DNA from: Halichondria panicea
Taxonomy: Eukaryota; Porifera; Demospongiae; Suberitida; Halichondriidae
Assembly (NCBI RefSeq): GCF_963675165.1
Contig: NC_087384.1
Span: forward strand, 4,457,182-4,521,181
DNA length: 64,000 bases
Reading direction: 5' to 3'
Part shown: one piece after another, positions 22,197 through 64,000 of the stretch
Layout of the letters: every line of letters starts with the position of its first letter
How positions within the stretch are numbered: position 1 is the first letter of the stretch
Notes under the pieces: model-generated
Database searches by the model: none
Seen by the model: the letters and a program-made list of their open reading frames with translations, nothing else
What the model was told of the DNA's origin: nothing
Made by a program: the position numbers and the translations under genes

Positions 22197-25100
22197 CCCG
22201 GTTTAAGGTACCACCAGTGTCGGTGGTGCAGGCCAAAGGTGTGGACGCAGTCTTAAGTGTCTGTATCTTGGTGCTGTTAACCACAGTTGGGGAATCAATG
22301 GAACCTTTCCAGCAGAAGGCAAGCACCCACCTGATGTTACCCGTACCCAAGCGTCTGATAATACCCCAGCAACAGCACATTACAACAACACTGTGGTGCT
22401 GTGTAGAGTTGTTGAAATGGAAGGAGGGCTCGGGCTCCAGTATGTGGACTTACTGAGACGCAGTACACTTTTACATATCCCAACCACAATCGGTATAATG
22501 GCACATTTTTTTCCACTGTGACTCCTGTTGAAGGAGGGAATCAAATGAAAGGAACAGCTAGTGAACCAGTTGCTGGATCATTTACATCAGCCAGAGCTAG
22601 GTGGCTAGTGTACTTATACTGATCATGGTTCTTTGTGGTTTATAAGTGCTTCTCTACGGGTGTAAGAACAGTTGTCAGCCAAGGAGAAGACTCAGATAAA
22701 AAATGTGTGATGTTTGAAGCAATGGTAATAATCACTATAATTATTGTATATCAATGGTCTAGTTGTTATTTTTTCAGGTCCCTGAATGTACACTGTTTAC
22801 TTTGTATCGAGTGGAATTTGGATCACTACTAGTAGGATTCTAAGAGTGGTGCTCTTAACGCATCTGGAAATGTTTCAATCACCTTCTCACTTCCTACTGA
22901 CATTCTAACAAATATCTCTGTGCTGCTAATGGAATTGACCTGATGTTTGAGAGTTTATTAAGTGAGTAAATCTCTGTTTCACTTTACACGGAGTCATATA
23001 ATACTCTTCAGGTACTAGTGATATTCAAAGACTTCTACCTGAGACTATAATTGTTCCGAAAGCATCAGTATGTGTGGCCATATTGAATATGCTGTGGATT
23101 CTTTTTCTCTTGGGGCTCTTAATGTATTTAGTTCCCATCACAAGTTATCATGCACAAGTGAGTCCAGCAGCATTATGTTGGCTGTGCCAAGGAGTACGGG
23201 TGATAGTTTCAGTATCAGTCACATACCTCCTGGAAGATACAGTCTCCTTGCTTTTGACCTGGAGAACAACCGTCTGCCAAGAATGCCACTCTCTCTAGCA
23301 TCTACAAGTGAAATACTGGAAGTGAGTACGTCACGAGGTAAGTGTGTAATGGTGCGATGTGTAGCAATTAACACTGTGAGTACTAGCTGCATGTGCATGT
23401 ATACCCATTGGTATAGAACTCCGGCCCGTTAGAAAGAGCCATACAATTGACAAATGCTGAACATCAATTTTTTTACTACACAGCATACATGTATATGGCT
23501 CATTACACAAACATACAAGTGTATGTAAGGCTCACACACAAACATACGTATATATGTATAGTCATGTAATAATAATAAGAGGAACTGCACTGCTCTTGTT
23601 AGGCCGTAACATGTAACATCTGTTGGCTATTGTCATGTAGGATCATAGTGATAGTTTATGCTGCACGTCATATGTTTTTGTGTATGTGTATATGTACGTG
23701 GCTAACAGTCGACCATTGTACATGCATGTGTGCATCTCTAGGAACTGCTGCTCCCCTGCCCAATAGTGTAGGAATCACTGCCGTTAAGTTAATCAATGGA
23801 GATGTTGAAGTGTACTGCTCTATATACCTGTAACGAACTGCTTGGTGTTGGTTCATTCAATCAACTCGCCAGAACAATTATAATTATGTCCGGCTCATCA
23901 ACTCTACTGATGAAAGAAAAACTGTCTTCTCTGTTGATCTCATTGGTATAATGCCACAGCCTTTGTAGCAGTGCTCACTTGGGAGAAAATGACTCTATAT
24001 TTGACAGTCAATTATCCCTCATCACCCAACTAGAAACATATCCTAACCGGAAACATCGGTTAGGTTGTTTCAGTCAGATTATTTGTTACGATGTAGGAGT
24101 AGTATTATAGTTGTTGACAATGCCTTGATAAGATTGTTAATTAGCCTAGTTTATTCAAAACAATTATTCATCTTAAAATATTCCCACCTGCAGCTGTCTC
24201 AACCATGCCAATCATTTCGGCTCCTCAGACACTACCCACTGCAGTAGTAGCAGGTCAGTCAAAACCAACCATCAACTACGGCTCTAAATGGCCAATAATT
24301 GGTACTAACTGCATGGGTCTACTAGCTGTCTTGCATGTACATGCACTTCTATGTATGAAAAAGGATTTTTGCTTTCTTGTTGCATGCACTGTGATTACTA
24401 CACTGGTGGTGGTGTCCATTTCTTTAGTTCTTCTGGTTCTAGTCGTAATAAAGAGGACTAAACGAGGCAGAAAAGTATTAAATTCCAGCTGCCGTCACAT
24501 GAAAAGGTACACCCATTTTACACTAGTTGTAATTATGCATGCATAATATTATAATTTATAGTGAAATTTTGAGCATGTTTTCAACTTTTTATGTTTATTG
24601 TATCTTTCATACTGTGGGCACACATACTGTATTCATTTCAGTACTAGTCACTTCAGTGGATACAGCAATGCATCCTCAGTACAGGTAAGTATAGATAACC
24701 ATGTATAACGTCTAGTGAAAGACTTACATTACTTAACAGAATATCTAATTTGGGTAGGAATGTCAGAGTTGTGGGATTTAATTAGAAAGTATATGCTCTT
24801 ATCATGCACAATTTCAGGATAATTAAACTGTGTTGTCTACAGAATGAAGGTGTTGAATTAACGTCTGTTATTGGACTCCACGATGTGTGCAAGGATGACA
24901 ATTACAACATAGCTGACAGCGGTATTGCCTTGTCATCAACTTACAATGTAATCCGTGAAGAGAACTTACATGACAGAGGCAAATCACCATATGATGTAAT
25001 CATCACTGAGGACCTTTCCGATATTGGTAGTGGAGTGTATGACGTAGCACGTAAGGAGAACATGAATAACTCAGCAGACGCCACACGATCTCCTTATGTT

Positions 25101-25540
25101 GTGGTCAGTAGCGAGTACTTACCGCCACCTGGCTACGAATCAGTCACGGCTACAACGTCATCTGCTTCACTGTTTCCCCCATCCCTAGAGCAGCGAAGCT
25201 CCGTCTCTTCCTGCCCCATACGACTCTGGAGTGGATACTCTTTTAGAGAGTGTCGTTAACGGGTCAGTTCAGAATGATGTTGTGGTAACAAAGGACGAGT
25301 CAAAGCAAGGAGATGTATTTTTAAATGAGAAATCTGCTGATGAGACAAAAGACGATATTGATGACGACGGACAAGAGGTCATAGTTGAGGTGAGCAGATA
25401 ATTGTCACGAATTTGTCATTAGTTTGATTGTGTCAGTATCACGAGTTTTCCATGTACAGAAAAATATATGGATTTAGCTCATGTCTTCTCTTGCAACTCG
25501 CAGTCCATTTGCACAGTATCCAGACACAAGGTTCATTATA

Positions 25541-26604
25541 AGTGAAACATTAAGTCAGAATTTAGTACGTCAATAAAAAATACATCATTTTGAGCTGAAT
25601 GCATACAATATGTAATTAGTTTTTCGTTGTCTAGGCTACAGCGTGATTTGTGGTTAAGATTACAAGGGTGACTGTAGATACCAAGCATTAGCCCCGGGTA
25701 TTGATGAAAATGGTATAATCTGTAGCTTATCTATACCTTTCTAATTTGTTGGATCATTTTTTAAAGGAATCAGCGGAATATTTTTTTTCAGCTGATACTT
25801 TTCGATTCCCGGTGTATGGTTATAGTTCTTGTACGTCCATCACAGAAATTAACAATTAAGGGGAGTTTAGTTGATTTATATATAGAAACTGTTGTTTTGT
25901 TTTATCTTCTACCTTTATAGTAGGTATCAGGAGTGCATCCTGTAGGTATTTATTCCAACATTAACTTTGAAGCCACTCCCATCGGTTTTGGTGGAAAAGT
26001 TGTGACGGACGTTGCCCAGCTGCGTAGCTAGCATCACCAACCATTCTCGTGCAAGTAAGCTGCAAGTACAATGTATACAAGCTCAGATTTTTTGGTAAAG
26101 CAAGCTTTAGCTGTGTCTAGTTACAAAGAAATGCATACCAAAAGAAAAGTGTGTACTTTGCTATTGTGATACGGTTTTTAGCGTTATATTGATTTGCATA
26201 ATGAAATTTCAGATAAGTATACGTCTGTCACAAAATATGTGTACGTCCGTCACGAGGAAAAGTAGCCCATTTAAAGAAGACGCTAGCCATAATTTGTTTT
26301 TTCCAAATAATTTATCAGCATAAACATGTTTTTATTATCCTAAGGCTAGTTACAAGCAAATTAACTAGCACACTTCACAGACTTTTGTGAGTGAACAGTT
26401 CTACATACATAATTTCAATTTCTCTGAATACGTCCGTCACAGTACTTAAAATTCACCTGCAACGCACCAGAAAATTAAAAAATGTGTGCTGTTGAATTTA
26501 CTGAGTGATTCTACTGACACCTATATTTTAAAGTTTTCGCTTGTACTTAGTGTTCAGTACAAAACAATCTCTGAATTGTAACGTCCGTCACCACGGAATT
26601 GCCC
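25541..26604. mobile_element. Insertion unique to A1, with repeated ACGTCCGTCAC
   Basis: Compared with A2 (GTTCATTATA followed directly by GCCGGCTAATG at 52936-52956), A1 carries about 1.06 kb extra in the intron before the ITIM exon. It contains five scattered copies of (A)CGTCCGTCAC or close variants (25829, 26223, 26246, 26430, 26580) and one complement (26003). TATA lies at both edges. No coding frame is visible. Confidence 0.6.
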
Positions 26605-26639
26605 TATAGCTGGCTTATGATTTTCCCTCATCCCCATAG

Positions 26640-26763
26640 CACCTGTATGTGATGGTCAAAACAGAGCCAGGTGCCAACTCAGACGACCCCACAAGGGTTG
26701 TGTACGCTCAGGTGAACAAGAAGAAACAGAAGCCTGTCCGTCTTACTGGGTCAGCTGCCGCTG
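26640..26763 (+). CDS. A1 cytoplasmic exon with ITIM-like VVYAQV
   Basis: The exon is bounded by CCCATAG and G/GTGAGC and is open in the frame set by the preceding exon, which ends on a whole codon (GAG). It begins HLYVMVKTEPG and contains RVVYAQVNKKKQ at about 26694-26729. VVYAQV fits the ITIM consensus (S/I/V/L)xYxx(I/V/L) exactly. The paralogous exon in A2 (52975-53098) keeps it with few changes, which points to selection before the copies decayed. Confidence 0.7.
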
Positions 26764-26939
26764 GTGAGCACTACTATACTTGTGTTTACCTCGTTATAGT
26801 CTTCATAAAAACCACACAGTGGTCAATACTTCCATGTGCATGTACAAGTCAGGTAAGTTTTCTACGTGAAGTTGCACGATTTTGGAGAAACTGGGTGACA
26901 TTCGATACACATAATATTATACTAATCTAATCCTTTTAG

Positions 26940-27232
26940 TTGCTGCTCCCGTGAAGCGCTCACCGCTCATCTGTGACACCCTAATGGAAGAGCTCCATCT
27001 TCTGGCAGGGAGGTGGAAGGACCTAGCGAGAACACTGGACATGGATGAAGAGGACGTGATAATATCTTCAGTAATAACGAGAATGACCAACTGAGGCTGC
27101 ATGAGCTGGTGGAGCTTTACTTCAGTAGCACACAATACAGACACACTTGGGAGGAGGTGGTGCAAATGTTGACAGATGTTGAGGAACATAGAATTGCTGA
27201 GAGAATTCAAAAGGATAAAGTTGATTCACTAG
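26940..27232 (+). pseudogene. Death-domain exon of A1, one frameshift
   Basis: The acceptor is CTTTTAG and the donor is CTAG/GTAAAT. The first part reads LMEELHLLAGRWKDLARTLDMDEEDV. After a shift of frame near 27055 the second part reads LRLHELVELYF, TWEEVVQMLTDVEEHRIAERI. The spacing of W, LA, L, W/TW and AE-I matches the six-helix death-domain fold used in apoptosis and immune signalling. The exon is missing from A2. Confidence 0.7.
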
Positions 27233-27319
27233 GTAAATGTACTGAGCTGTATATGATCATAATTGTGTGACACGGGTATACATGCTTGTATGTAAGTTGC
27301 TCCCATGCACTTCAGTAAT

Positions 27320-30390: not shown

Positions 30391-31672
30391 ACATAGTTTA
30401 CATGCACATAATTATGTATAGTAATGGAGAAAAGAGGCTGGGCATGAGTGGAACACAATGTAAGACATTAGCATTAGACTGCAGTGAGACAGTAAGACAG
30501 CCCTGGAATAGTTGTGCAGCAAAATCTTAACATCTTGAATGACAAAAATTGAACATGTGTGCAAAAAAATGCTATGATGCAGTCATGCTCTATACTACAA
30601 ATGTACATTGTTGCTTTATAATGATATTCATTAATTTTTATCTTGTCATTAGATCTAATTGAACTCTCGATCTCGTGGCCATGATTTTGTGAATAGATAG
30701 TCTATATCTAGGTACGTAACTCATTCCTCTGCTCTCCCTCGTTTTAAGCTACTTGTATACTAGGCTGTAGCCAGGTAATTTAATTGTGATTATTAACCCG
30801 AGGCGCGTGGGCGGCCACGGGTTATAGTAGTTGTTTGGTTTGTTTGTTTGTTTGTTTGTTTGTTTGTTTGTGACAGGTGAATCTACTCACCTGGATGCCA
30901 CAGCACTGTGTTTACAGCATGGATAGCCTTCATACAACAAGTTATTAATTTTAATAGTGGCAGAATTTCATGTTAAACCTTCGTTGTCAAATAAAAACGA
31001 GCAAAAGCTAAGAAGCTTGTGACTGGGTCTGCTTACCTGGATGCTCTAGCACTGCGTTTACAGCATGGGTAGCCTCCACACAACAATTCAGTACTTCTAA
31101 TAGTGGCAGCTTTCGGTGTTAAAGCTTCGTTGTCTAATAAAAGCGAGCAAAATGTAGCTTGAACAGAACTTGCACATGCGTTACTTATAACTGAAGTGAT
31201 CCTGTACCAGGTCCAGAACAATGGAACAGGGTCACTAAAGTAGAAAGCTGTATATATACCAGGAACAATATTGGAACAGGGTCACTAAAGCAGAAAGTTT
31301 GCTTTAGCTGACTGGGATCCATGCAGGACCTGGAGCCATACTTCTCTGAGACTCCATGCTTCTTTGCTGTGATCCTAATCCACAGTGCATATATTTATAG
31401 TACTACTACCTGTTCTCAAATGTTTCAGCATGCCTCCAGTCTGGTTTAGTTTTATTGCTCCTGAGTTGCTGTGCAAGTCATGCATGATGATGATAACAAC
31501 ATCACTATTGCACTGCATTATATCAGTCTTCTGGTTTCTTTATAATCATGTCACCAGCCGAGGGTTTGCACTTTAGTGCTCTAGTTATAGCAAAAAAAGT
31601 GTTTTTTCTACATCTAGATCTACTCAAATTAATTTTTCTCCCACATTATTTTGTTACAGATAAAACAAAGCG

Positions 31673-34600
31673 ATGAAAGCTGTGTGTGTACCATTTGTAC
31701 TACTATTGATGTTCCATCTCAGTCAAGGTTTGCATACCGTATTAATGATCGCCTTAAATCGTAATATCATTGTAGCTTGTGCATGTGTGCATGTTCGTCC
31801 GTTAATATAATACGTATGATATTAATTTACATAGGAGTCTATTGTTCTTTAATACTGCTATACATATACGTATACACCTAATACAATTGCCAATACCCTG
31901 CTAGTTACTTGTGGTGTTCTTCAACACTTAATCAATCAACCAACGTTAACCTTCACATTATTGTACCGTATATCGGGTTTCGAATGCGAAGTTCTTTCGA
32001 TTGTGAATTATAAGTTTCGCATAGATAGCAAACGAAAGATGCGCAGGAGCATGCGCATGCTATTCACCAAAGTTAGAAACACAATAGGATTTGTACAGTA
32101 TCATTTGCAAATGATAAACTATACGCATTCAAAACTCGATATACGGTATTTTCTTTCAATTCTTCAGCCCAGTTTACAGTACAACCAGTGTCGGTGGTGC
32201 AGGCTGAAGGTGTGGACGCAGTGTTTGAGTGTCTGTATCCTGATGCTGTAACCCACAGTTGGGGAATCAATGGAACCTTTCCAGCAGATGATAAGTTCCC
32301 ATCTGATTTTACTCGTACCCCACCGTCTGGTGATACCCCAGCAACACTGACCATCCCAGCTACAGCACATTACAACAACACTGTGGTGCAGTGTGAGGTA
32401 GTGGTTAGAGTGGAAGGAGGGTTCGATGGTATACGGACAGAGAATGCTACCTTGACAATATTTGGTAAGTCCCTCATACATGTATACGTCTACATACTCA
32501 TGCCACTCACTATATCGTAATCTGTTACTACAGCCATTACTGTTAATGCAAGTAATGATACGGATACAATCATTTTGTCATGGGCGGACCTCAACTTTAC
32601 TACCAACCTTACGTACTGTGTGAACTTCAACAAAACGACAATTGTCTGCAATAAGACACTTCCTCCAGTGTGTGGACTGACTGAAACGCAGTACACTTTC
32701 AAGTATCCCAACCACAGTTTGTATGACACTTTTTTTTTCACGGTGACTCCTGTTGATGGAGGGAATCAGATGAAAGGAACAGCTAGTGAACCAGTTGCTG
32801 GATCATTTACATCAGCCAGAGGTGACCAGTGTACTTACTGATCATGGTTCTTTGTGGTTTATAAATGCTTCTCTACAGGTGTAACAACAGTTGTCAGCCA
32901 AGGAGAAGACTCCGAGGAAAAATATGTGATGTTTGAAGCAATGGTAATATCACTATTATTGTATATCAATGGTCTAATTATTATTTTTTCAGGTCCCTGA
33001 ATGTACACTGTTTACTTTGTATCGAGTGGAATTTGGATCACTAGTAGGATCTCAGAATGGTACTCTTAACGCATCTGGAAATGTTTCGATCACCTTCTCA
33101 CTTCCTACTGACATTCTAACAAGTATCTCTGTGACACTCACTGCTGCTAATGGAATTGACCTGATGTTTGAGAGTTCATTAAGTGAGTAAATCTCTGTTT
33201 CACTTTACATGGAGTCATAATACTCTTCAGGTACTAGTGATATTCAAAGACTTCTACCTGAGACTGATTGTTTCGAAAGCATCAGTATGTGTGGCCGTAT
33301 TGAATATGCTGTGGATTCTGTTTCTCCTGGGGCTCTAATGTATTTAGTTCCCACCACAAGTGAGTCCAGCAGCATTATGTTGGCTGTGCCAAGGAGGGGT
33401 GATAATTTCAGTATCGGCCACATACCTCCTGGAAGATACAGTCTCCTTGCTTTTGACTTGGAGAACAACAGTCTACCAAGAATGCCATTCTCTCTAGCGT
33501 CTACAAGTGAGATTGTGGAAGTGAGGACATCAAGAGGTAAGTGTGTAATGGTGCGCATGTATAATTACAGGGATTTGCTGAGTTCTTGCAACTGCAACAT
33601 CGAGAGCAGAACTACCTGTCACGTGAACAGTTATGTAATTCTGGCTCATTCCAAACCAATTTTTCTCCAATAAAGCCTTTAGGCCATTTATTTTAGGAAA
33701 AAATCGAACTATACAGGAGGCTTTGTTCTGCATTGCAAGCCTTTGCACCACAGCTCAAAGCTATCCTTGAGCATTTCCAATCGTTTTGTGAGCTACTATT
33801 AGTCTGTCACACAACCTGTGTCACAGACCTGTGTATCCAGCTGGTAAGACAGATTTTACTGAGACTAGTGATACACTTTCAACAGCTTGCAGGCAGGCTG
33901 GGGCAAGTAGTAGCTTGCAAAACGATTAGAATCTCAAGGATAGCTTCAGCTGACAAGGTCTTTCCTATGTAAGTCGATGTTTTCCCAGTTTAACAAAAAT
34001 AAACGGCTCTATTGGAGAAAAATTGGTTTTGGAATGAGCCACAATTCAATCTTGTTACATAACGGTTCACGTGACAGGTACTTCCGCTCTCGACATTGAG
34101 TTGCAAGAATTCTTCAAATCCCTGTAAACACTGTGAGTACTAACTGCATGTGCATGTAGCCAATGGTAGAACGCCTGCCCGTTAGTGAGAGAAGGAGTTC
34201 ATTGGTGAGAGCCATAGACAATGCTGAACAACAAATGTTTGTGTACAGTGTATATGTATGGCTCATACACTAACATACGTAGTATATACAGTCATGTACA
34301 GTGTATATAATAATTTATAAGAGGAATGCACTGCATGCTCTTGTTAGGCCCTAACTTGTAACTGTTGTCATGTAGGCTTAACGCCATGCGTGTGTGGCTA
34401 ACAAGCAAATGTTTTTGTGTATGTGGGTGCATCACTAACAGTTGACAGTTGTTATTGTACATGTGTGCATTTCTAGGAACTGCTGCTCCCCTGCCCAATG
34501 GTGTAGGGAACATTACCTTTAAGTTACTCAGTGGAGATGTTGAAGTGAACTGCTCTATACCTGTAACGAACTGCTTGGTGTTGGTTCATCCAATCAACTC

Positions 34601-36375: not shown

Positions 36376-36626
36376 TTTGTCAATGTATGTGTCACTGTTT
36401 CATGTAATTTAGCAAGTTGTTTTTAATTATTGTGTTTCAGGTTATGGTATTGTCTACTGAAGGCAAAGATCGTCAATAAAATGTTATTATTATGAGGAAG
36501 TGGCATCGTTGACGCCCACTCGTCACTGATCAACAAGCTCTACATGTATACATAGAGCATAGATTGAAAGTTAGAAGAAGGAAAATCTATGATCTAGCTA
36601 GCTAGCTAGCTAGCTTATAAGAATCA

Positions 36627-37880: not shown

Positions 37881-37899
37881 GTACTCAGACTGACTTAAT

Positions 37900-45059: not shown

Positions 45060-45512
45060 AACTCCAATCCGTTACGTCAATCACATGTACTGGTAGTTTT
45101 CCATGTTTTCCCGGCCAATATAATATAAATATGCAATTTTTACTGGTGGGTGATGACCAATCCTTTTATTATACATCCATTTTGGAATGTGCGGGCATAT
45201 AATTATGATGATTTGTGATGAATTGATGTTCCTAATACATGCAGTGTTGAACACAGGTACACACATGCAGTCCATCCATGCGTAGTAACATGCACGGACC
45301 GTACTGGTGACCTACATGGAATGATGTGGTGGATGGAAGCTGGTAGATGGATCTGGAACATAGTCTATATACTATGTATTGTACATGTTCATGACGTTGT
45401 AACGGATTGGAGTTATGCTCTCGTCGGATTTCTTGTTTCCACGCTTTTTTGTGGTTCCCCTGGCCAATCCTAGCAATTTTTCACATTGCAAATGTTTTTC
45501 TAGTCGGATCAG
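44965..45512. repeat. Inverted repeat at the start of the Helitron frame
   Basis: About 110 bases at 44965-45079 (CCGACTAGAAAAACATTTGC ... CCAATCCGTTAC) recur in inverted orientation at 45402-45508, with about 320 bases between. Identity is very high. The left arm encodes the N-terminus of the Helitron frame, and the right arm repeats it on the plus strand (45415 onward). The spacer is AT-rich and has no gene. Confidence 0.85.
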
Positions 45513-46651: not shown

Positions 46652-46659
46652 AGATTCCC

Positions 46660-50256: not shown

Positions 50257-52109
50257 GGCCGTAACATGTAACATCTGTTGGCTATTGTCATGTAGGATCA
50301 TAGTGATAGTTTATGCTGCACATCATATGGTTTTGTGTATGTGTATGTACGTGGCTAACAGTCGACCATTGTACATGTGTGTATTTCTAGGAACTGCTGC
50401 TCCCCTGCCCAATAGTGTAGGAATCACTGCCGTTAAGTTACTCAGTGGAGATGTTGAAGTGCACTGCTCTATACCTGTAACGAACTGCTTAGAATTGGTG
50501 TTGGTTCGTTCAATCAACTCTCCAGAACAATTATATGTCCGGCTCATCAACTCTACTGATGAAAGAAGAACTGTTTTCTCTGTTGATCTCATTGGTATAA
50601 CGCCACAGCCTTTGTAGCAATGCTCACTTGGGAGAAAATGACTCTATATTTGACAGTCAATTTTCCCTCATCACCCAACTAGAAACATATCCTAACTGGA
50701 AACATCGGTTAGGTTGTTTCAGTCAGATTATTTGTTACGATGTAGGAGTAGTATTATAGTTGTTGACAATGCCTTGATAAGATTGTTAATTAGCCTAGTT
50801 TATTCAAAACAATTATTCATCTTAAAATATTCCCACCTGCAGCTGTCTCAACCATGCCAATCATTTCGGCTCCTCAGACACAACCCACTGCAGTATAGTA
50901 GCAGGTCAGTCAAAACCAACCATCAACTACGGCTCTAAATGGCCAATAATTGGTATACTAACTGCATGGGTCTACTAGCTGTCTTGCATGTACATGCACT
51001 TCTATGTATGAAAAAGGATTTTTGCTTTCTTGTTGCATGCACTGTGATTACTACACTGGTGGTGGTGTCCATTTCTTTAGTTCTTCTGGTTCTAGTCGTA
51101 ATAAAGAGGACTAAACGAGGCAGAAAAGTATTAAATTCCAGCTGCCGTCACATGAAAAGGTACACCCATTTTACACTAGTTGTAATTATGCATGCATAAT
51201 TATAATTTATAGTGAAATTTTGAGCATGTTTTCAACTTTTTATTTTTATTGTATCTTTCATACTGTGGGCACACATACTGTATTCATTTCAGTACTAGTC
51301 ACTTCAGTGGATACAGCAATGCATCCTCAGTACAGGAAAGTATATATAACCATGTATATAACGTCTAGTGAAAGACTTACATTACTTAACAGAATATCTT
51401 TGGGTAGGAATGTCAGAGTTGTGGTAGAAAGTATACAAACATACTCTTATCATGCACAATTTCAGGATAATTAAACTGTGTTGTCTACAGAATGAAGGTG
51501 TTGAATTGACGTCTGTTGTTGTACTCCACGATGTTTGCAAGGATAACAACTACAACATACGTAGCTGACAGCGGTATTGCCTTGTCATCAACTTACAATG
51601 TAATCCGTGAAGAGAACTTACATGACAGAGGTAAATCATCGTATGATGTAATCCTCACTGAGGACCTTTCCGATATCGGTAGTGGAGTGTATGACGTAGC
51701 ACGTAAGGAGAACATGAATGACTCAGCAGACGCCACACGAACTCTTTACGTTGTGGTCAGTAGCGAGTACTTACCGCCACCTGGCTACGAATCAGTCACA
51801 GCTAAAACGTCACCCATTTCACTATATTACCCCCTCCTATGATCCGAGAGAGCAGTGAAGCTCCGTCTCTTCCTGCTCCATACAACTCCGGAGTGGATAC
51901 TCTTTTAGAGAGTGTCGTTAACAGGTCGGTTCAGAATGAAGTTGTGGTAACAAAGGACGAATCAAGGCAAGGAGATGTATTTTCAAATGAGAAATGTGCA
52001 AATAAGACAAAAGACGATACTGATGATGACGGACAAGAGGAAAAGGTCATTGTTGAGGTGAGCAGATAATTATCACGAATTTGCACATTATTTTGATTGT
52101 GTCAGTGTC

Positions 52110-52826
52110 TAGCCTCGATTCCAGGCCGCGAAGAGAAAGGCGGCCTGGTATACCTTGTATGCACATGCGCGAAATAATTGACAGCAATTTCATCATACAA
52201 ACCGGACAAAGTTACAATATGTAACCATGGCAGCTTTCAGAGACACTAATTAAATAATTATGCTGCAGCAGTGTTACTTCTTCTAGCTCTGTTTATCAAT
52301 GAGACAGTTCAAGAAAGCCTCCCAGACAGCTAGAGCTGCCAGCTAGGAAGAGTGGTGGACTCTTTAATACATCAGTATATATAGATCTTGAGTGAATAAC
52401 TTCCTGAGTGTCGAGTTAAAGCTCTTTCAGGAGTGATCATTAGCTTCTTTATCTTCAGCAATGACTTCTTGTCGAACATAAAGGCAAAATTTGGTAGCAG
52501 AAGACTTGCCTGGTCCATATTACCACAGCCTCATCAGGGGACCCATAGGAACACATCATGCCTTTCCTATAACATCTGTAGCCTTACAGTGTAGAGTGTC
52601 GTTAAGTAGAGACTTGGCTTGATACAATAAAGGGCAAAAGTTAGTCGTCTTTGCACAATACTTCTAAATAAGTTCTATGTAACGGACTGTAACTTCAGAA
52701 TACAAATAGTATACGGTTGACAGTATCCACAAATACACGGATTACCCCCTTTTTGGGGTAATGTACACGCATGCGCATACAAGGTATACCAGGCCACCTT
52801 TTTCTTCACGGCTGGAATCGAGGCTA
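52110..52826. mobile_element. TAGCCTCG element, 717 bases, 9-base duplication
   Basis: TAGCCTCGATTCCAGGCC at the left and GGCTGGAATCGAGGCTA at the right, with inner arms GGTATACCTTGTATGC / GCATACAAGGTATACC. GTCAGTGTC stands on both sides (52101-52109, 52827-52835). A1 near 25432 has a single GTCAGTATCACGAG, the empty site. It contains no transposase. Confidence 0.9.
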
Positions 52827-52974
52827 GTCAGTGTCACGAGTTTTCCCCTTGTACATGTATGTATGTACGGAAAAATATATGGATAATTAGTTCTCTTGCA
52901 ACTTACAGTCCATTTGCCCAGTATCCAGACACAAGGTTCATTATAGCCGGCTAATGATTCCCTCACTCCCATAG

Positions 52975-53098
52975 CACCTGTATGTGATGGTCAAAGCAGA
53001 GCCAGGTGCCAACTCAGACGATCCCACGAGGGTCGTGTACGCTCAGGTGAACAAGAAGAAACAGAAGCTTGTCCGTCTTACTGGGTCAGCTGCAGCTG
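52975..53098 (+). CDS. A2 cytoplasmic exon with ITIM-like VVYAQV
   Basis: The paralogue of the A1 exon at 26640, with the same AG acceptor (CCCATAG) and GTGAGC donor. VVYAQV lies at 53032-53049, and the exon is open throughout. The gene around it is broken, so expression of this exon is doubtful. Confidence 0.6.
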
Positions 53099-53329: not shown

Positions 53330-55061
53330 ACAATTTGCATGTCATCATGATTGTAATCAAATTTTTCAACTTCCCCTCACTGGATGCAATAGTCCCTGTA
53401 AACCGTGTATTTTTTCCATAGCTATTGTTTCATAATTTTACTCGTTTGTGTGAATTTGCATTGCTTTCTTGTAAAATCAATAACGCTGATGCATTTTATA
53501 GGAATTAACGAGAAGATTTTTATGCTTATACTTTGTTACTATTATAAACAGGTACTAATTTAAAATTGTGTCCGCGCTAATAATAAAACCAGGAGTGCAC
53601 TCCTGATATAAGAGAGTATGCTAAGCAAGCTAGCCCTATCTATACATCTGACTCCAAAGTTTAATCGACATTCAAAGGGCAGATCATCAAAATCAAGCTG
53701 TTAGGACGCCTTACAACACACCTTCACTACAGCACTCATAATTTTATACATCTTTTGGCCAATAATTATTGTGCTAATAAATTTGCTGCAAATCCGCCAA
53801 AATTAGTACCCCCTAAAATTAAACTGAAAACGCTAAATTACTATACCCGTAATAGTAATCTTACTAAGTTAGGTATATGTACTATACAATTATACTATAT
53901 ATACCCACTGTACAATAATAACTAGTGTTGAAGCTTAAATTGGTGTGAAGTCCTTATAGTACACTCATTTAAATCCGCCAGGGCCTATTTTCAACTTCCC
54001 ACTCTCCCTCTCATCGTTCCCCCAACTTTTATAGCCTCCTTCTTTCACCCTCCCTCTTTCTCTCCCCCCCCCCACTCCTACCACCCTTATTTGTTCTCTC
54101 ATATAAGTGCATGCATTGCATGCCGTTATACATATAAAATTATATGCATTCTAAGTTTGACACAAACACTCTTTGAACTGAGTCTCCCTTCCCCCCCCCC
54201 CTCTCTCTCATCCATATATACTAGCATTTCCTTTCAGATTACATTTAAGAATATAATATTCATTCAACACGTCAAGATGTGCATGAATGAAGGTGTAAAC
54301 ATAATAAATTATAGATATATGGCCCACCAAAATAATTATTATAGTTAACCCTGACTTTTTTTAGGACACGTCAATTTGTCTATTCTAGTTACAAAAGTCA
54401 ATAAAAATTAATACTAATAATTAACTATTACATTGCTAGCCTCGTTCCCAGGCTGATTGTCTCCGCCAACTAGGGCCTGGGGACGAGGCTAAAGCATATG
54501 CATTGCAATGTCATGTGCAGATAAAATTAATGTTTCACACCGGTAGATGGCCCAAGTACGTACCAGCCATGCAGTGGATCCAAATGAAGTAATACATAGT
54601 TACATGCGCACGCGTATGATGGTAATGGAGAAAAGGGGCCGGGCCGGGCATGAGGTGGAACACAATGTAAGACATTAGACAGTGCGTGCCCCCCTGCTAT
54701 CTACAGCCCTGGAATAGTTAACTGTGCAGCAAAATCTTAACATCTTGAATGAAAGTTAACAACTTACATGTACAAATGTACAATGTTGCTTTATAATGAT
54801 ATTCATAAATTTTATGCTCAATTAGTCTAGATCTAATTAGATGAACTTTTGTGGCCGGCCATGCACATGATTTTGTGAATAGATATGATAGACTAGCTAT
54901 ATCTAGTTAACTCATTCTGCTCTCCCTCGAGCTCCGTTTCAAGCTACCTGTATACTAGGCTGTAGCCAGGTAATTAAATTGTGACTCTAACCAAAAAAGT
55001 GTTTTACATCTCGAGCTTTAATTTTTCTCCCACATTATTTTGTTACAGATAAAACAAAGTG
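53330..55061. other. A2-B2 spacer, reference without late insertions
   Basis: No gene here. It matches 28061-31672 in order but lacks most of its insertions. It keeps the TAGCCTCG remnant at 54437-54491 (also at 29546-29597). Pyrimidine-rich stretches lie near 54050-54210. Confidence 0.65.
54437..54491. mobile_element. Short TAGCCTCG element, old insertion
   Basis: TAGCCTCGTTCCCAGGC ... GCCTGGGGACGAGGCTA around CTCCGCCAACTAG. The paralogous place at 29546-29597 carries the same element with a damaged left end, so it predates the duplication. The flanking 9-mers no longer match. Confidence 0.7.
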
Positions 55062-58000
55062 ATGAAAGCTGTGTGTGTACCATTTGTACTACTATTGATG
55101 TTCCATCTCAGTCAAGGTTTGCATACCGTATTAATGATTGCCTTAAATCATAATATCATTGTAGCTTGTGCATATGTGTTCGTCCGTTAATACGTATGAT
55201 ATTTATAATTATGATATTAATTTATATAGGGGTCTATTGTTCTTTAATACTGCTATACACCTAATGCAATTGCCAATACCCTGCTAGTTACGTGTGGTGT
55301 TCTTCAACACTTATAATCAATCAACCAACGTTAACCTTCACATTATTGTACCGTATATCGGGTTTCGAATGTGAAGTTCTTTCAATTGTGAATTGTAAGT
55401 TTTCGCATAGATAACAAACGAACGACACGCACAGAGTGGATCATGCGCATGCTATTCGCCAAAGTTAGAAACACAATAGGATTTGTACAGTGTCATTTGC
55501 AAATGATAAACTATACGCATTCAAAACTCGATATACGGTATTTTCTTTAGATTTTTCAGCCCAGTTTACAGTACAACCAGTTTCGGTGGTGCAGGCCGAA
55601 GGCGTGGACGCAGTGTTTGAGTGTCTGTATCTTGGTGCTGTAAGCCACAGTTGGGGAATCAATGGAACCTTTCCAGCAGATAATGAGTTCCAACCTGATT
55701 TTACTCGTACCCAACCGTCTGGTGATACCCCAGCAACACTGACCATCCCAGCTACAGCACATTACAACAACACTGTGGTGCAGTGTAGAGCTGTTGTTGA
55801 AGTGGAAGGAGGGTTCGTTGGTAGACTGACCGAGAATACCACCTTGACAATATTTGGTAAGTCCCTCATATACATGTACGTCTACATACTCATGCCACTC
55901 ACACTATGCCATAATCTATTACTACAGCCATTACTGTTAATGCAAGTAATGATACGGATGTGATCATTTTGTCATGGGCGGACTTCAACTTTACCACTAA
56001 CCTCATGTACTGTGTGAACTTCAACAAAATAACAATTGTCTGCAATAAGACACTTCCTCCAGTGTGTGGACTTACTGAGACGCAGTACACTTTCAAGTAT
56101 CCCAACCACAGTGGGTATGACACTTTTTTTTTCACGGTGACTCCTGTTGATGGAGGGAATCAGATGAAAGGAACAGCTAGTGAACCAGTTGCTGGATCAT
56201 TTACATCAGCCAGAGGTGGCTAGTGTACCTACTAATCATGGTTCTTTACTGCTTCTCTATACAGGTACTGGTGTAAGAACAGTTGTCAGCCAAGGAGAAG
56301 ATTTAAATGAAAAACTTGTGATGTTTGAAGCAATGGTAATAATAATTATATAGATTCGATTTGTTGTCTAATTGCTATTTTTTCAGGTCCCTGGATGTAC
56401 ACGGTTTGTTTTGTATCGAGTGGAATTTGGATCATCACTAGTAGGATCTCAGAATGGTACTCTTAACGCATCTGGAAATGTTTCAATCACCTTCTCACTT
56501 CCTACTGACATTCTAACAAACATCTCTGTGACAATCACTGCTGCTAATGGAATTGACCTGATGTTTGAGAACAGTTTATTAAGTGAGTAAATCTCTGTTT
56601 CACATTACATGGAGTCATAATACTCTTCAGGTACTAGTGATATTCAAAGACTTCTACCTGAGACTGATTGTTCCGAAAGCATCAGTATGTGTGGCCGTAT
56701 TGAATATGCTGTGGATTCTTTTTCTCCTGGGGCTCTAATGTATTTAGTTCCTACCACAAGTGAGTCCAGCAGCATTATGTTGGCTGTGAGGAGGGGTGAT
56801 AATTTCAGTATCGGCCACATACCTCCTGGAATATACAGTCTCCTTGCTTTTGACTTGGAGAACAACAGTCTACCAAGAATGCCATTCTCTCTAGCGTCTA
56901 CAAGTGAGACTGTGGAAGTGAGGACGTCAAGAGGTAAGTGTGTAATGGTGCGCATGTATAATTATATCAGTTACAGGGATTTGCTGAGTTCTTGCAACTG
57001 CAATATCGAGAGCAGAACTACCTGTCACGTGAACAGTTATGTAATTCTGGCTCATTCCAAACCAAATAAAACCTTTAGGCCATTTATTTTGGGAAAAAAT
57101 CGAACTATACAGGAGGCTTTGTTCTGCATTGCAAGCCTTTGTACCACAGTTCAAAGCTATCCTTGAGCATTTCCAATCGTTTTGTGAGCTACTATTAGTC
57201 TGTCACACAACCTATGTCACAGACCTGTGTATCCAGCTGGTAAGACAGATTTACTGAGACTAGTGATACACTTTCAACAGCTTGCAGGCAGGCTGGGGCA
57301 AGTAGTAGCTTACAAAATGATTAGAATCTCAAGGATAGCTTCAGCTGACAAGGTCTTTCCTATGTAAGTCGATGTTTTCCCAGTTTAACAAAAATAAACG
57401 GCTCTATTGGAGAAAAATTGGTTTGGAATGAGCCACAATTCAATCTTGTTACATAACGGTTCACGTGACAGGTACTTCCGCTCTTGACATTGAGTTGCAA
57501 GAATTCTTCAAATCCCTGTAAACACTGTGAGTATACTAACTGCATTGTGCATGTAGCCAATGGTAGAACGCCTGCCCGTTAGTGATAGAAGGAGTTCATT
57601 GATGAGAGCCATAGACAATGCTGAACAACAAATGTTTGTGTACAGTGTATATGTATGGCTCATACACTAACATACGTAGTATATACAGTCACGTACAGTG
57701 TATATAATAATTTATAAGAGGAAATGCACTGCATGCTCTTGTTAGGCCCTAACTTGTAACTGTTGTCATGTAGGCTTAACACCATGCGTGTGTGGCTAAC
57801 AAGCATATGTTTTTGTGTATGTGGGTGCATCACTAACAGTTGACAGTTGTTATTGTACATGTGTGCATTTCTAGGAACTGCTGCTCCCGTGTCCGATAGT
57901 GTAAGGAACATTACCGTTAAGTTACTCAGTGGAGATGTTGAAGTGAACTGCTCTATACCTGTAACGAACTGCTTAGTGTTGGTTCATTCAATCAACTCTC

Positions 58001-59733
58001 CAGAACAATTATTTGTCCAGCTCATCAACTTTACTGATGACAGAACTATTGTCTTCTCGGTTGATTTTATTGGTAATGTCACAGTAGCAGTGCTCATTTG
58101 GGTGGAAAATAACTCTATATTTGAGGGTCAGTTGTCCCTCATCACCCAACTGGAAATATATACCGGTAAGAAGATTAGTTTAGTCAGTCTGGGTTGTATG
58201 TATCACTTTAAGGATGCGCAAATAATTATGATGATGGACAGTGGACTCTAAATGCTGCCAACTTGTGAACATGCGCAAGTTATTTGCAGCATCAAGTAAT
58301 TAATTCATTTTTGTTATTGTAGCCACCTGTTGTCAATAGATATTTACTTAGGTACTAAACTGAAACTGCATTGTTATTATACATTTGTAATGTTCACAGA
58401 ATTCCTAGCTGTGATCACTTATTAGCAAAACACCCACTCTCTTCCATCCAGCCATACAAGTGGTGATCAGCCCCAGTGGTGGTCCAATGGCTGGTCAGAG
58501 TTTCTCCCTCACTTGTTCCCTGAGTGGAGGGGTCTCTCTACAACCCACCCTCTCCTACCAGTGGACGAGGGAGGGAGGGTCACTCATGACCAGCACAGCA
58601 ACCCTCAACTTTGACACTCTCTACTTGTCAGACGCTGGTCAGTACAGCTGTCAGGTCATCCTCACCTCCAGTCAGCTTGAGGGGGAACACACTGTAGCTG
58701 CTCACTACACCATTGAGTTCATGAGTAAGTGCCACTATGTCTAGACATTATGATTTATCCATTTAGTAAAATCATTTATGGACTGTGCGTAGCTAGTGCT
58801 CAATGGATCATGCTGCTGTTGTGACCGTCAATTTGTTTTATAGCACTCAACATTCAACTCCGTCTGGATGTAATAACAAACTGTGAGGTGTATATTGAGT
58901 CAGAGACAATGGCCAAAGCCAGTGGCATCACTAACAGACTATCTCAAGGTGTTGAAGGATTGTGTGCTTGTGGGTTCAGCCCCTCCCTTCTCACTGACGA
59001 GTTCATCAATTGTTTTGACGGCTCCTCTAGTCATGTGACCTACAGAGCTGTGCTGACTGGAACAGAAACTGTGTCTGCTGTGGAACTCATTTCTTTAATT
59101 GAACAATGGATCAGCGACACTTCAAGCATCATAGTACAAAGTACCCGACTTGGTTTGACAAACACTTGCCCTGTGGTGATTACTGACAGAGACAGTCTAG
59201 AGTGCCCTGAGGATATCACTAATCTGACAACTGCTACTACCTCACCCACAGAGAGTGTAGTGGTCAATGTTGGTGCAGTGGCTGGTTGGGTGGTTGCTGG
59301 AGTCTTGGCCATTGCTGTGCTAGTACTGATCATATTGCTTGTCCTGGTTATGTTGAGGCAACGGAGGTCTGGATCCAAGGACATGAGTGATGAGAAGACA
59401 GGCAGCCAACCAACACAGTGAGTGTTAGTTGTGTGAATGAAGTAGCTGTACATACATACTTAGGTATATTTGGTTGTAGAGAGCTCCTTTGTAATAAATT
59501 ACCTAATTTTGTGCATTAATAATTATACGATAATTAATTCTTCTATTTCGTACAGACTAGCCCCAGTGGTGATGAGTCATCTCCCCTCCCCTGATTACGA
59601 GGGGTTGAGCGAACTACAAGAGGAGGCTACCTATGAGGTGGTGGACCAGCCACGCCCCCCTCCTCCTGCAGACTACCAGCTCTCAGCCTGTGCAGCTTAT
59701 GCATCCACTGACTGCAACACAGAGACCAAGTAG
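55062..59733 (+). CDS. Type B Ig receptor, copy B2 (10 exons, 841 aa)
   Basis: Exons: 55062-55116, 55560-55856, 55928-56215, 56265-56335, 56387-56582, 56631-56933, 57875-58165, 58452-58724, 58844-59417, 59556-59733. Phases agree and the coding total is 2,526 bases. Exon 4 is 6 bases longer, exon 5 is 6 longer and exon 6 is 3 shorter than in B1, all in frame, which is what selection on protein would leave. Domain order is as in B1. The last two Ig/unknown modules and the membrane helix are almost identical to B1, while the first exons differ more. The tail keeps YEGL and YEVV but ends at TETK because of a one-base length change, losing the final tyrosine of B1. Poly(A) signal AATAAA near 59850. 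Confidence 0.88.
56974..57518. mobile_element. MITE in B2 intron 6 (same as in B1)
   Basis: The orthologous copy of the CAGGGATTTG element at 33568-34124, with the same ends and TA flanks and slightly shorter. It is a shared insertion, not an independent one. Confidence 0.8.
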
Positions 59734-59950
59734 ACACTATAACAACACAGTCTAGTTTGTCAATGTATGTGTCACTGTTTCATGTAATTTAGCAAGTTGT
59801 TTTTGTGTTTCAGGTTATGGTATTGTCTACTGAAGGCAAAGATCATCAATAAAATGTTATTATGGCATCGTTGACGCCCACTCGTCACTAATCAACAAAT
59901 AGAAGAAGGAAAATCCATGATCTAGCTAGCTAGCTAGCTTATAAGAATCA

Positions 59951-61340
59951 ATGGCTACTGTAACTCTATTTCTTTGTTGTCTGCTGGGAAGTGTTTCTCT
60001 TGTGCATGTATGGACAACCTTTGAGTGAGTTGATATGCAGTGCAACTAGTTATAGTGCATGTATAATTAATGAGCTAAACTATATATCTCAATCTTTTGT
60101 TATAATGTATAATATTGATCTAGTAGATCTAGATGAAACAAGTATTTATCAATTATTGTATTAATGGCATACAGTTCGACTGGTATCACCAACTGAGCCC
60201 CCTGACACTGACCACACTGGAGATGTCATCTCGTTCTCTGATGTTGGATCTAGAGCAGGAACTGGTACTAATCCACGAGTCTGGTATTGCTACACCTTAG
60301 ACGCTGGTGGTGTAGTGTGGCAGGGTCCTGATGGGACTAACGTGCCCATAGGCGTCCCGAACAATCCCAACACAGCCGCAGTTGATGACGAACTGGTGTT
60401 TCTGGAGTTGCCGTTGCTCTGCATTGTGGTCCCACACACTTCAGTCCTGATGGAGAACACTGCTGTAGGAGGTTTAGCACAGGACTGAGTAGATGTGTCA
60501 CCTTCAGTGAGTGCTGACTATATTGTCTATGTCCAATACTAACCCCCACCCCCCACAGCTCCCTGCCCCACACTGAGTCCCCTGTCTAATGGAATGATCT
60601 CATACTACCCTGGTACCGACATGGCCACAGCCACCTACATCTGTGACACTGGGCACACTCTGACTGGTACCATCTCATCCATCACCTGTAATAAGGCCAC
60701 AAGGCAGTGGAGTAGCACTGAGAGATCCACTTGTGAACGTAAGAAACATTTGCTATAATGTTCACATTCACTGACCTCCTTGCATACAGTGATTTGTCCA
60801 GACCTCACCATCCCAGCACCACTTGTGTACAGTGACACCACCATCCCCAGAGATGATGGCTCCATGGCTACCTACACCTGTGACACTGGCTACCAGGTGA
60901 CTGGACTGATGATGAGGATGTGTAGTGTCAGTGGATGGAGCACTGGTGAGGGGGATGTGTTGTTGAACTGATATTAAGAGTTCCCCCACAGCTATCTGTC
61001 CTGTCCTCACCCTCTCCAATGGATTCATCGTCTACGATCCAAACTCATCCCCCGTACTAGAGGGAGCCATGGCTACACACGCCTGTGTCACTGGGTACCA
61101 ACTGTCCTTATCCCCGGCTACTAGGATCTGTCAGTCTGACAGAATGTGGAGTGGAGATGACATCACTTGTGAACGTATATGTACTCAGACTGACTTAATG
61201 GGTAACTAACTGCCAGTTATACATCTGTTTTAGTGATTTGCCCCAACCTTGGCGTACCAACCAATGGAGGAGTGACCTACAGTGACACCACCATCCCCAG
61301 AGCTATGGACTCCACTGCCACCTATCTGCAGGTATTATTT
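59951..61340 (+). pseudogene. CCP (sushi) protein, copy 2
   Basis: Signal peptide exon at 59951-60024 as in copy 1. The second exon lacks the 4-base insertion of copy 1 but has a 10-base deletion (GAACTGGTGTTTCTGG near 60390), so it shifts elsewhere. CCP modules follow at about 60560-60738 (SSITCNKATRQWSSTERSTCE), 60790-60945 (open, but without its last cysteine), 60991-61174, and the start of a fourth at about 61234-61332 (CPNLGVPTNGGVTYSD) that breaks off at ATCTGCAGGTATT. The neighbour upstream is B2, as CCP1 follows B1. Confidence 0.65.
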
Positions 61341-62458
61341 TCGTATCCACTATAGAGCTGGTTCTACTGCCAGAAAGTTTCCAAAAGGAGCAGAACTTCT
61401 AAAACTACTACAATAGGATTGCACGACTATGGAATTGACTGGACCCTATCGATCTAACATCAATACAATCTATTACGAACTAAGGGAAAATTCGACATTG
61501 GTGCTCGTGCCCCTGTGAAAACTGTCTCATGCACACAATTGCAAATTAGTATGGTTTAGTCTCACTCTGTCAGTACTCATGAGATCACAAACTTGCAACA
61601 TTGTCATGTCATTCTCAAATACACTGTTTCTAGACTAGACTACTGCTCAATAATAATAACTCAAGCCTCAAGTTGAAGCTTGAGGATAGGCTCAAAGATA
61701 GACCTTTAGTCTTCAGACTTCACTATGCTAGGTAAAGCCATCGTCTATATGATAATATCTCCAGACTTGCATAAAGTAAGTCTGCAATGCGTAGGCATCC
61801 TGTGGCTTTGTTGCCTGTCAGGCTCCGCCCATCTACTGAAAGCACACTCATTTTCACTATGCCACCACTGTGCCACCGTCACGCGACTTAGCGAGGCAGG
61901 CTCTCCTTTTTCTTGGACGGTTCGTTCTTTCTTTGTTCCTCCAATTCTTTATCTTAGCTTATTGACCGTGAACAAAGAACGGAAAAAGGAGAGGCTGCGA
62001 AGGAGGCTACCTCTGCCTGAGGTCACACTAATAACATGCCATGATTCTTGAATAGATAGAATTCCATCAAATAAATCGAAGCTAAGCATCTCGTGTTGAG
62101 ATGTCAGTGGAAAACCAACATAATTATTCTCCCATACCTTTCGTATACCTAAAAAACAACAACATGCTGTCAGCTTTACCGTTAGCCTCGACCCCAGGCC
62201 GCTAGGTCGCCTACTAGTATTTTTCAACTTCGTTATATTAAAAAAAAATCGGCCTGGGACCGAGGCTACTTTACCTTATGCTACGGCGTACGTCAAAATT
62301 ATAACCATTCACATCAAGTTTTGATAGTTGTCATACAAAGTAGGTGCATGTCATTGTCCTCAGGACAACCCTATATTGTATATCTTTTAACTAGCACTGC
62401 AGGATATAAAACTTTTAACTCCCATACTGTACTGAGGGTGCATAAACTAGTTTGTTCT
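61341..62458. other. Spacer between CCP2 and A3
   Basis: An imperfect hairpin lies at about 61888-62005 (GGCTCTCCTTTTTC and GGAAAAAGGAGAGGC). The TAGCCTCG element at 62183-62268 is listed separately. No gene is visible; the fourth CCP module is not continued. Confidence 0.5.
62183..62268. mobile_element. Short TAGCCTCG element with 9-base duplication
   Basis: TAGCCTCGACCCCAGGCC at the left and GGCCTGGGACCGAGGCTA at the right, 86 bases in all. The flanks are CTTTACCGT (62174-62182) and CTTTACCTT (62269-62277), eight of nine matching. Confidence 0.85.
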
Positions 62459-64000
62459 ATGGCATGTTGCATCACTACCATGGCAACCATATGGCATAAT
62501 GCACTGGGATTATGTGTACTCCTACTATTACTACATCTCAGTCAAGGTTTGCATACGTATATCGTCAGGAGTACATTAAGATATCGTATATACCAGGAGT
62601 CGATAAATTGATGTAGAGCTTGTGCATGTGTGTTTGTCAGTTACGCATGATAATAATTGTACTTGCTTTAATAGCAACAAGCACAATAGTCTCCATAATT
62701 ATTATGGAGACTATTATTATAGAAGGCCATACCCTGTACAGTCTCGCGGGCAGACGTTGGTAGGGGAGGGGGTCGTCTGGTCACTCTTACACTGATTCTG
62801 TTGCACATGCAAGATATTCGTTAATTGACTTATTTACAGCTATAGCTATAGCTAGCTCATGTTTGGATCCTTCGCAGCCAGGTAGCTAGGTATGGTGCAA
62901 CATTAAATTAGCCTTCTTACTTCTTTTCACATTCCTTTTATGCCATAATTATGGAGTGTTACCGCTGACTAAACACATAGTCAAATCTGATTGGCATATT
63001 CTTTTGATCTCATGAATTGCGAAATGATTAGGTACAATTCACAATAGCAATAGGGTTTGTACAGTCTCAAATGATAACTACGCATTCAAAATCTGATATA
63101 CGGTATCTTGTATTTTGTTTTGATTCTTTAGCCCAGTTTAAGGTACCACCAGTGTCGGTGGTGCAGGCCAAAGGTGTGGACGCAGTCTGTATCTTGGTGC
63201 TGTAAACCACAGTTGGGGAATCAATGGAACCTTTCCAGCAGAAGGCAAGTACCCACCTGACGTTACTCGTACCCAAGCATCTGGTAATACCCCAGCAACA
63301 CTGACCATCCCAGCCACAGCACATTACAACAATACTGTGGTGCTGTGTAGAGTTGAAGGAGGGCTCAGGCTGACCGAGAATGCTACCTTGACGATATTTG
63401 GTAAGTCCCTTGTGCATATACACCATGCCACTCACCATTATCTATGTTGTTATTTACAGCAATTTCTGCTAAAACAAGTATATAATGATACGGATACTAT
63501 CATTTTGTCATGGGCTTACGTTTACTACCAACCTCACGTACTGTGTGAACTTCAACAAAATGACAATTGTCTGCAATAAGACACTTCCTCCAGTGTGTGG
63601 ACTTACAGAGACGCAGTACACTTTACATATCCCAACCACAATCGGTATGACAATTTTTTTCACGGTGACTCCTGTTGATGGAGGGAATCAGATGAAAGGA
63701 ACAGCTATAGTGAACCAGTTGCTGGATCATTTACATCAGCTAGAGGTGACAAGTGTACATGTATACTTATACTGATCATGGTTCTTGTTTTGTGGTTTAT
63801 AAGTGCTTCTCTACAGGTGTAAGAACAGTTGTCAGCCAAGAAGAAGACTCAGATAAAAAATGTGTGATGTTTGAAGCAATGGTAATAATCACTATAATTA
63901 TTGTATATCAATGGTCTAATTGTTATTTTTTCAGGTCCCTGAATGTACACTGTTTACTTTGTATCGAGTGGAATTTGGATCACTACTAGTAGGATTCTAA
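62459..64000 (+). pseudogene. Type A Ig receptor, copy A3 (cut by window end)
   Basis: Exon 1 at 62459-62546 encodes a signal peptide ending LLLLLHLSQG, like the B copies, and joins exon 2 (from 63132) in phase: QFKVPPVSVVQAKGVDAV. The same 10-base deletion as in A2 then gives a stop at about 63202. Exon 3 (from about 63460) has the AGTATATAATGA stop. The sequence 62853-64000 is nearly identical to 47287-48438, so A2 and A3 are recent duplicates that inherited the lesion. It could be expressed only as a truncated peptide. Confidence 0.75.
62684..62716. repeat. Perfect palindrome in A3 intron 1
   Basis: AATAGTCTCCATAATTATTATGGAGACTATT is a near-perfect self-complementary stretch centred at about 62700. 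It could be an excision footprint or the core of a small MITE; nothing more can be said. Confidence 0.6.

Follow-up and report, generated by a model that had tools for sequence, protein, structure and literature searches.

A 64,000-nucleotide stretch of a sponge genome (C8:4457182-4521181, here called the window; the assembly comprises 131.46 Mb in 39 contigs) carries a cluster of receptor genes of two types, A and B, which share the exons of their extracellular head and end in different tails, with motifs resembling the immunoreceptor tyrosine-based inhibitory motif (ITIM) in A and the corresponding activation motif (ITAM) in B. The explanation towards which we lean is that recombination between two sponge receptor families gave rise to paired receptors, the B genes and an A gene just beyond the window (A4), that would bind a similar ligand and signal through different tails. 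B1, B2, and A4 beside them are probably the members that work today, as judged from their gene models, and we infer from the tails that A4 and B signal in opposite directions. All intron-exon models were built from the genomic sequence of this one assembly; extended positions carry the numbering of the window on past 64000.

Intact A and B genes with near-identical heads

The genes and gene parts that bear on this reading are the following.

31673-36375, + strand: B1, intact 10-exon receptor gene, 841 residues (GT-AG introns, matching phases)
32165-34767, + strand: B1 head exons E1-E6, common to A4 at 95% amino acid identity (alignment with A4)
34817, + strand: apparent junction in B1, in the intron after E6 (end of A4 homology, start of homology to the C4 locus L006)
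35073-36038, + strand: B1 Ig exon (35073-35345) and stalk/transmembrane exon (35465-36038), of the type of the C4 family (identity to C4 stalks)
36177-36375, + strand: B1 ITAM-like tail exon (DYEGL-x8-YEVV, PPPP, DYQL; motif shuffling)
55062-59733, + strand: B2, intact second B gene of B1-type structure (10 exons; GT-AG introns, matching phases)
58201, + strand: apparent junction in B2, at the same place as in B1 (end of A4/B2 homology, start of L006 homology)
C8:4530019-4536681 (extended 72838-79500), + strand: A4, intact A gene, 12 exons, 916 residues (every intron GT-AG, matching phase)

B1 is organized, in order, into a signal peptide, the six-exon head, an immunoglobulin (Ig) domain, a stalk, a transmembrane (TM) segment, and the ITAM-like tail. 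The acceptor of E1 is a tandem AG that places the start of the exon at 32165 or 32180. The membrane-proximal Ig is the sole clear Pfam domain of B1 (Ig_3, E = 2.2e-8). We take the stalk to be SEA-like; the AlphaFold model of the stalk/TM exon was uninformative (6 sequences, pLDDT 41.9). The best aligned stretch of B1 and B2 is 93.6% identical over 833 positions.

A4 starts 8.8 kb beyond the end of the window and combines a B-type signal exon and head with a Thr-rich stalk, a TM segment, a tyrosine (Tyr) tail, an ITIM-like exon, and a Death domain. The Tyr tail contains STYDVI, SPYDVL, SLYDVA, SPYDVV, and PDYETV, and the next exon carries RVVYAQV. The Death domain (Pfam, 9.1e-5) is 78.8% identical to the Death query obtained from A1, a decayed A gene of the window, by bridging its frameshift; a ZU5 domain ahead of Death, a trait of the UNC5 type, was not found in A4, for which a Pfam scan to E 0.01 gave Death only. 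B2 and A4 are neighbors on the same strand (B2 ends at 59733 and A4 starts at extended 72838), with remnants of two further units, CCP2 and A3, in between.

Over the six head exons, B1 agrees with A4 at 95% of residues and B2 at 92%; two aligned relatives on contig C1 reach 40% and 39% identity to A4. Frameshifting gaps across the signal exon and the six head exons number 0 for A4/B1, 4 for A4/B2, and 2 for B1/B2; those of the latter two pairs all lie within E1 and are net in frame, and gap counts in E1 are soft because the gaps of these control pairs all fall there. The ratio of nonsynonymous to synonymous substitution rates (dN/dS) of the heads is 0.33 for A4-B1 and 0.51 for A4-B2. On these gene models, A4 and B1/B2 bear near-identical heads on different tails, as expected of the ectodomains of paired receptors.

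An apparent junction between two receptor families in B

The 97% identity between A4 and B1 stops at B1 position 34817, 50 bp inside the intron behind E6. At the same position, homology to B1 opens in L006, a receptor locus of contig C4; in the remaining four of the C4 receptor loci aligned, it opens at 34845-35084. Junction positions are the ends of local alignments and are good to a few bases. Since B2 is a copy of B1, the junctions of the two genes represent one event. B thus has the look of a chimera, in which an A-family head and the 3′ half of a complement control protein (CCP) receptor gene were joined within one intron.

Receptors of the CCP array on C4 appear as exon chains that run from an N-terminal domain through several Sushi exons, Ig, stalk, and TM to the tail DYEGLSKLQEEATYEVVDQPRPPPPADYQLS. 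Genes on C1 and C4 were read as same-strand exon chains, and arrays were sampled, so that array counts are lower bounds. Identity to the stalk exon of B1 is 75-97% in five C4 stalk exons; on C8, among the matches listed, the stalk-TM exon of B1 recovers only itself and that of B2. Genome-wide, the B1 tail exon has 44 matches of at least 47 residues, 40 on C4, 2 on C8, and 1 each on C10 and C12. YEVV is present in all ten of the tails listed and YEGL in nine.

Tail motifs and candidate effectors

Tail motifs were counted in observed and shuffled tails, and p values are uncorrected. A4 contains four ITIM-type motifs ([SIVLT]xYxx[IVL]) where 1.04 are expected (p = 0.016), and the tail of the candidate inhibitory member accordingly matches the ITIM pattern. 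The ITIM-like exon of A4 (VVYAQV) has counterparts in two C1 relatives, C1a and C1b, that read VIYSVV, VVYVVV, VIYSEV, and VVYVVV. A relaxed ITAM, with V allowed, occurs once in B1 where 0.021 are expected (p = 0.02).

Three features of the genome could serve such tails: an SH2-SH2-PTP exon chain at C3:8.40 Mb, an SH2-SH2-Tyr kinase chain at C4:4.84 Mb, and an SH2-ankyrin-SH2-Tyr kinase chain (L012) at C9:5.25 Mb. We take these layouts to be those of SHP, Syk, and Shark/HTK16, respectively, the SH2-ANK-SH2-kinase order presumably being that of Shark.

Several observations weigh against this picture of a chimeric origin and opposed tails. Only one of the five C4 receptor loci, L006, reaches the junction. 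The dN/dS of the B1-B2 head pair, 0.81, is near neutral and is weak evidence of constraint. ITIM-type motifs number 2 in C1a (p = 0.25) and 3 in C1b (p = 0.05); the strict ITAM, Yxx[LI]x6-12Yxx[LI], has no occurrence in B1; and the relaxed ITAM-like pair (YDVV...YETV) is also found in the tails of A4, C1a, and C1b, which leaves the sign of A unclean. Motif enrichment is modest (p about 0.02, uncorrected). Because the strict ITAM is missing from B and the relaxed pair recurs in A, we treat the sign of each tail as a hypothesis.

An earlier note on this DNA had described A and B genes with a shared ectodomain, an ITIM-like tail with Death domain in A, and an ITAM-like tail in B. The shared ectodomain on different tails stands by way of A4, outside the window, together with B1 and B2, and not by way of the window's own decayed A1-A3; the contrast between tails survives as a difference in sequence motifs, softened by the lack of a strict ITAM in B and by the relaxed pair in A.

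Fold of the shared head

Matches to Pfam Ig_3 were obtained for the E1 exons of 5 of 8 relatives (best 8.5e-5); E1 of B1 itself does not match. AlphaFold, given 8 sequences, models E1 as an Ig-type sandwich (pLDDT 83.7), and the best VIA rows of this model are Ig domains with Z about 10 (NEGR1, Z 10.0, root-mean-square deviation 2.2, 82 aligned). Foldseek with the E1 model returned nothing at E <= 0.001, and a PDB profile search with the head alignment returned only BPI chains (E 0.14). The predicted model and the profile matches are consistent with an Ig fold in the head, which would place it in the immunoglobulin superfamily. FN3, which had been proposed for the ectodomain alongside Ig, found no match in E2 (6 exons) or in the whole head (5 members); a Dep-1 Fn3-like model was matched by a single E1 exon, at 0.038.

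Shared heads with alternative tails on C1 and C4

A-type heads form an array on C1, with at least 41 matches over the E5 region at 6.91-7.70 Mb and one on C2 (88 of 248 candidates scored, hence a lower bound). Two C1 stretches (L008, L009) have the A architecture with Death, read by eye, and nine long first-tail exons are among the matches listed on C1. Three other C1 loci, L022, L023, and L024, picked for closely spaced heads, have a short tail with YASV, YESI, YEDV, or similar motifs plus YVNVN, which ends the short tails and which we assume to be a Grb2-type motif; no long-tail or Death exon is among the matches listed for them. Short-tail matches of at least 60 residues number 47 in the C1 head array and 2 on C2. 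At C1:3.44-3.70 Mb, 17 weaker short-Tyr-tail matches of at least 60 residues may mark a further head family with the same tail.

On C4, tyrosine phosphatase exons lie downstream of Sushi exons at L010, L014, and L015 (the L014 exon was tested by Pfam), and the N-terminal domain ahead of the phosphatase in L010 is 87% identical to that of the ITAM-like receptor at L005. Both L014 and L015 have an Ig exon behind the TM exon. Shared heads with alternative tails thus appear to recur in this genome, with a short Tyr tail or ITIM plus Death on C1 and an ITAM-like tail or phosphatase on C4.

Two further observations concern the tail domains at large. A very large array of phosphatase exons occupies C4 0.04-0.77, 1.27-1.38, and 2.1-2.6 Mb, interleaved with CCP/ITAM-like receptors; phosphatase exons have at least 176 matches genome-wide, most of those listed being on C4. 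Death domains, for which 150 out of 503 candidates were scored, have at least 148 matches genome-wide and lie densely at C12:1.04-1.67 Mb.

Layout of the cluster and its decayed members

The plus strand of the window reads A1-B1-CCP1-A2-B2-CCP2-A3, and self-comparison of the window gives a repeat unit, 31593-37899 against 54993-61199, at 93%; the A-type segments also match one another. Within the window only B1 and B2 are intact, the other receptor units being decayed.

22197-27266, + strand: A1, decayed A-type gene (19 frameshifting gaps relative to A4)
Pieces of A1, + strand, by match to A4 exons: E1-E6 22197-24041, TM 24386-24473, Tyr tail 24843-25389, ITIM-like 26640-26763, Death 26940-27266
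47567-53098, + strand: A2, decayed A-type gene (21 frameshifting gaps)
63132-64000, + strand: A3, decayed A-type gene continuing beyond the window to extended 67558 (16 frameshifting gaps)
36830-37890, + strand: CCP1, CCP receptor reduced to a broken 5′ half that comprises Sushi exons and a frameshifted N-terminal domain
60165-61350, + strand: CCP2, CCP receptor reduced to a broken 5′ half of the same composition, again with the N-terminal domain frameshifted
40932-45071, − strand: presumed Helitron-like element between CCP1 and A2, a helicase open reading frame and related open frames

Gaps were counted exon by exon in alignments of A4 with A1, A2, and A3, and some compensate one another inside one exon. 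Behind the A heads, A1-A3 retain Tyr-motif exons and the ITIM-like exon; the Death exon is found in A1 alone, where it matches Pfam Death at E = 9.7e-9 once its frameshift is bridged with X, and alignment of the A4 Death exon gave no match in A2 or A3. The acceptor of the TM exon has changed from AG to AT in all three copies, and the E3 acceptor of A1 is GG. Stalk exon alignments score 58, 46, and 58 in A1, A2, and A3, below the cut-off of 60. Within the stretches searched, no signal exon was matched for A1-A3; by eye, a weak look-alike (alignment score 30) was seen for A3 near 62.5 kb. Since the A4 exon alignments gave no in-frame stop by substitution in any of the three, the call of decay rests on gaps and lost sites, from which A1, A2, and A3 look like pseudogenes. 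Assembly error is an unlikely source of the frameshifts; several gaps are common to the copies, such as one of 14 bases that A1, A2, and A3 all have in E5. No frameshifting gap falls in the ITIM-like exons of A1-A3, whose dN/dS relative to A4 is 0.30-0.47. The joined pieces of CCP1 and CCP2 match Pfam Sushi at E = 5.2e-16.

The tandem A-B-CCP array of the earlier note is borne out in order and strand, with the amendment that A1-A3 are pseudogene-like and CCP1 and CCP2 broken 5′ halves. Its triplets do not hold up as working units of three genes: what had been taken for CCP genes are broken pieces of a different receptor family, and B looks like a fusion. The sponge origin that it had suggested is supported by silicatein, for which a query found multi-exon genes; one exon reads GDCGASYAFSAMGALEG and has Ser where cathepsin-like relatives of the same comparison carry the catalytic Cys, a change that supports a demosponge.

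The receptor cluster is flanked on both sides by tandem long open frames that look like a multi-pass membrane protein, at 2841-4643, 8636-10339, 13414-15096, and 18351-20033 on the − strand of the window, with further copies at extended 82.8-84.5 kb and 88.4-90.1 kb. Those in the window encode 560-600 residues and are ~83-90% alike at the DNA level; one copy scanned had no significant Pfam match.

Proposed origin and alternative explanations

In the scheme that we favor, a crossover in the intron after E6 would have placed an A-family head, from a donor with Ig head, Tyr tail, ITIM-like exon, and Death domain, onto the 3′ half of a CCP-family gene that contributed Ig, stalk, TM, and the ITAM-like tail. 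Once formed, B would have been duplicated together with its surroundings. A cell with both B and A4 could bind one same or similar ligand through the near-identical heads; Src-type kinases would phosphorylate the B tail and Syk or Shark would be recruited, while the ITIM-like sites of A4 would recruit an SHP-type phosphatase and its Death domain would open a separate branch through a Death-domain partner. The balance of A4 and B may then set the response of the cell to neighbors or microbes. As a more tentative extension, which we regard as possible, a "same head, alternative tail" system fed by recombination may span three arrays of the genome (Ig heads on C1 with short YESI/YEDV/YVNV or ITIM plus Death tails, heads of that family on C8 with ITIM plus Death or ITAM-like tails, and CCP heads on C4 with ITAM-like tails or receptor phosphatase domains) and provide a balance of activation and inhibition like that of natural killer (NK) cells, perhaps for self/non-self recognition; this extension is drawn with Syk-, Shark-, and SHP-like genes being present.

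The receptors might instead be of the same sign, or not immune at all, with tails that offer generic SH2, SH3, and Grb2-like docking, Death domains that lead to NF-kB or apoptosis, and a diversified output in adhesion or patterning. This is a serious, if lesser, possibility, to which the shared relaxed pair, the missing strict ITAM, the presumed Grb2-type YVNVN of the short C1 tails, and the Death domain of A4 all lend weight; set against it are the excess of ITIM-type motifs in A4 (four against 1.04), the retention of the ITIM-like exon in two distant C1 relatives, and the SHP-like exon chain in the genome. It is rather improbable that the cluster is simply dying, as segmental duplicates whose members, B included, are all losing function: the broken A1-A3 and CCP1-2, the transposon-like frames between CCP1 and A2, and the B1-B2 ratio of 0.81 would fit such decay, but all frames and splice sites are preserved in the models of B1, B2, and A4, and the A4-B1 ratio is 0.33.

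Alternative splicing could in principle connect B heads with tail exons from the decayed A gene that comes next, in which case A2 and A3 would survive only as tail cassettes. E6 ends in phase 1 in both B and A4, and the gap-free ITIM-like exons of A1-A3 with their dN/dS of 0.30-0.47 would agree with this, yet the Death exon is unmatched in A2 and A3, the tails contain frameshifting gaps, and the intron needed would measure ~16 kb and cross the transposon-like frames. We consider such splicing very improbable, ranking it low because the acceptor of the TM exon is lost (AT in A1, A2, and A3).

Comparison with known receptor systems

Vertebrate paired receptors (KIR, LILR, SIRP, PIR) are encoded by adjacent genes with near-identical ectodomains and ITIM-type or activating-type tails. 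A4 and B are alike in adjacency, in their ectodomains, and in the pairing of an ITIM-type with an activating-type tail, and appear to fit this class in layout, the strict ITAM apart. Unlike the vertebrate receptors, B has its activating-type tail as an ITAM-like exon of its own, from another family and joined through an intron; no charged residue was seen by eye in the TM of B; the A tail includes a Death domain; and the A/B head has weak Pfam Ig matches and no significant PDB match. Known sponge Ig-domain membrane proteins likewise have Ig, but with kinase or TIR tails in place of ITIM/Death and ITAM-like ones. We know of no Death tail or phosphatase pairing in Hydractinia Alr, and Draper of Drosophila, a single receptor, is not known to have a cluster of inhibitory twins.

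The fuhc locus of Botryllus includes ITIM and hemITAM receptors, and its FcoR genes form one cluster of IgSF and sushi receptors whose motifs are of the ITIM, hemITAM, or core Tyr kind (PMC12065747). The sponge genes resemble FcoR in having IgSF and sushi receptors with Tyr motifs; in FcoR, a single protein carries both Ig and sushi, and the receptors have a link to allorecognition (PMC12065747). In the sponge, by contrast, the Ig heads of A and B belong to one family and the CCP heads of C4 to another, and Death and phosphatase tails occur. The same report lists ITIM/ITAM motifs in the cnidarian candidate allorecognition genes alr of Hydractinia, a likeness in that ITIM/ITAM-type motifs sit on receptors of an early animal (PMC12065747). 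Draper is an ITAM receptor of Drosophila with Shark acting downstream (PMC4503800), another case of an ITAM receptor with a Syk-related kinase outside vertebrates, for which the sponge has the L012 chain. In the literature searched, with partial coverage, no report of ITIM/ITAM paired receptors in sponges was recognized.

If the reading that we favor is true, balanced recognition through a shared head would be as old as the sponge lineage or an independent invention within it. The locus would show how a partner receptor can be made, by one intron crossover between two receptor families, and it provides named candidates, both receptors and effectors, with which to ask how sponges may discriminate self from non-self.

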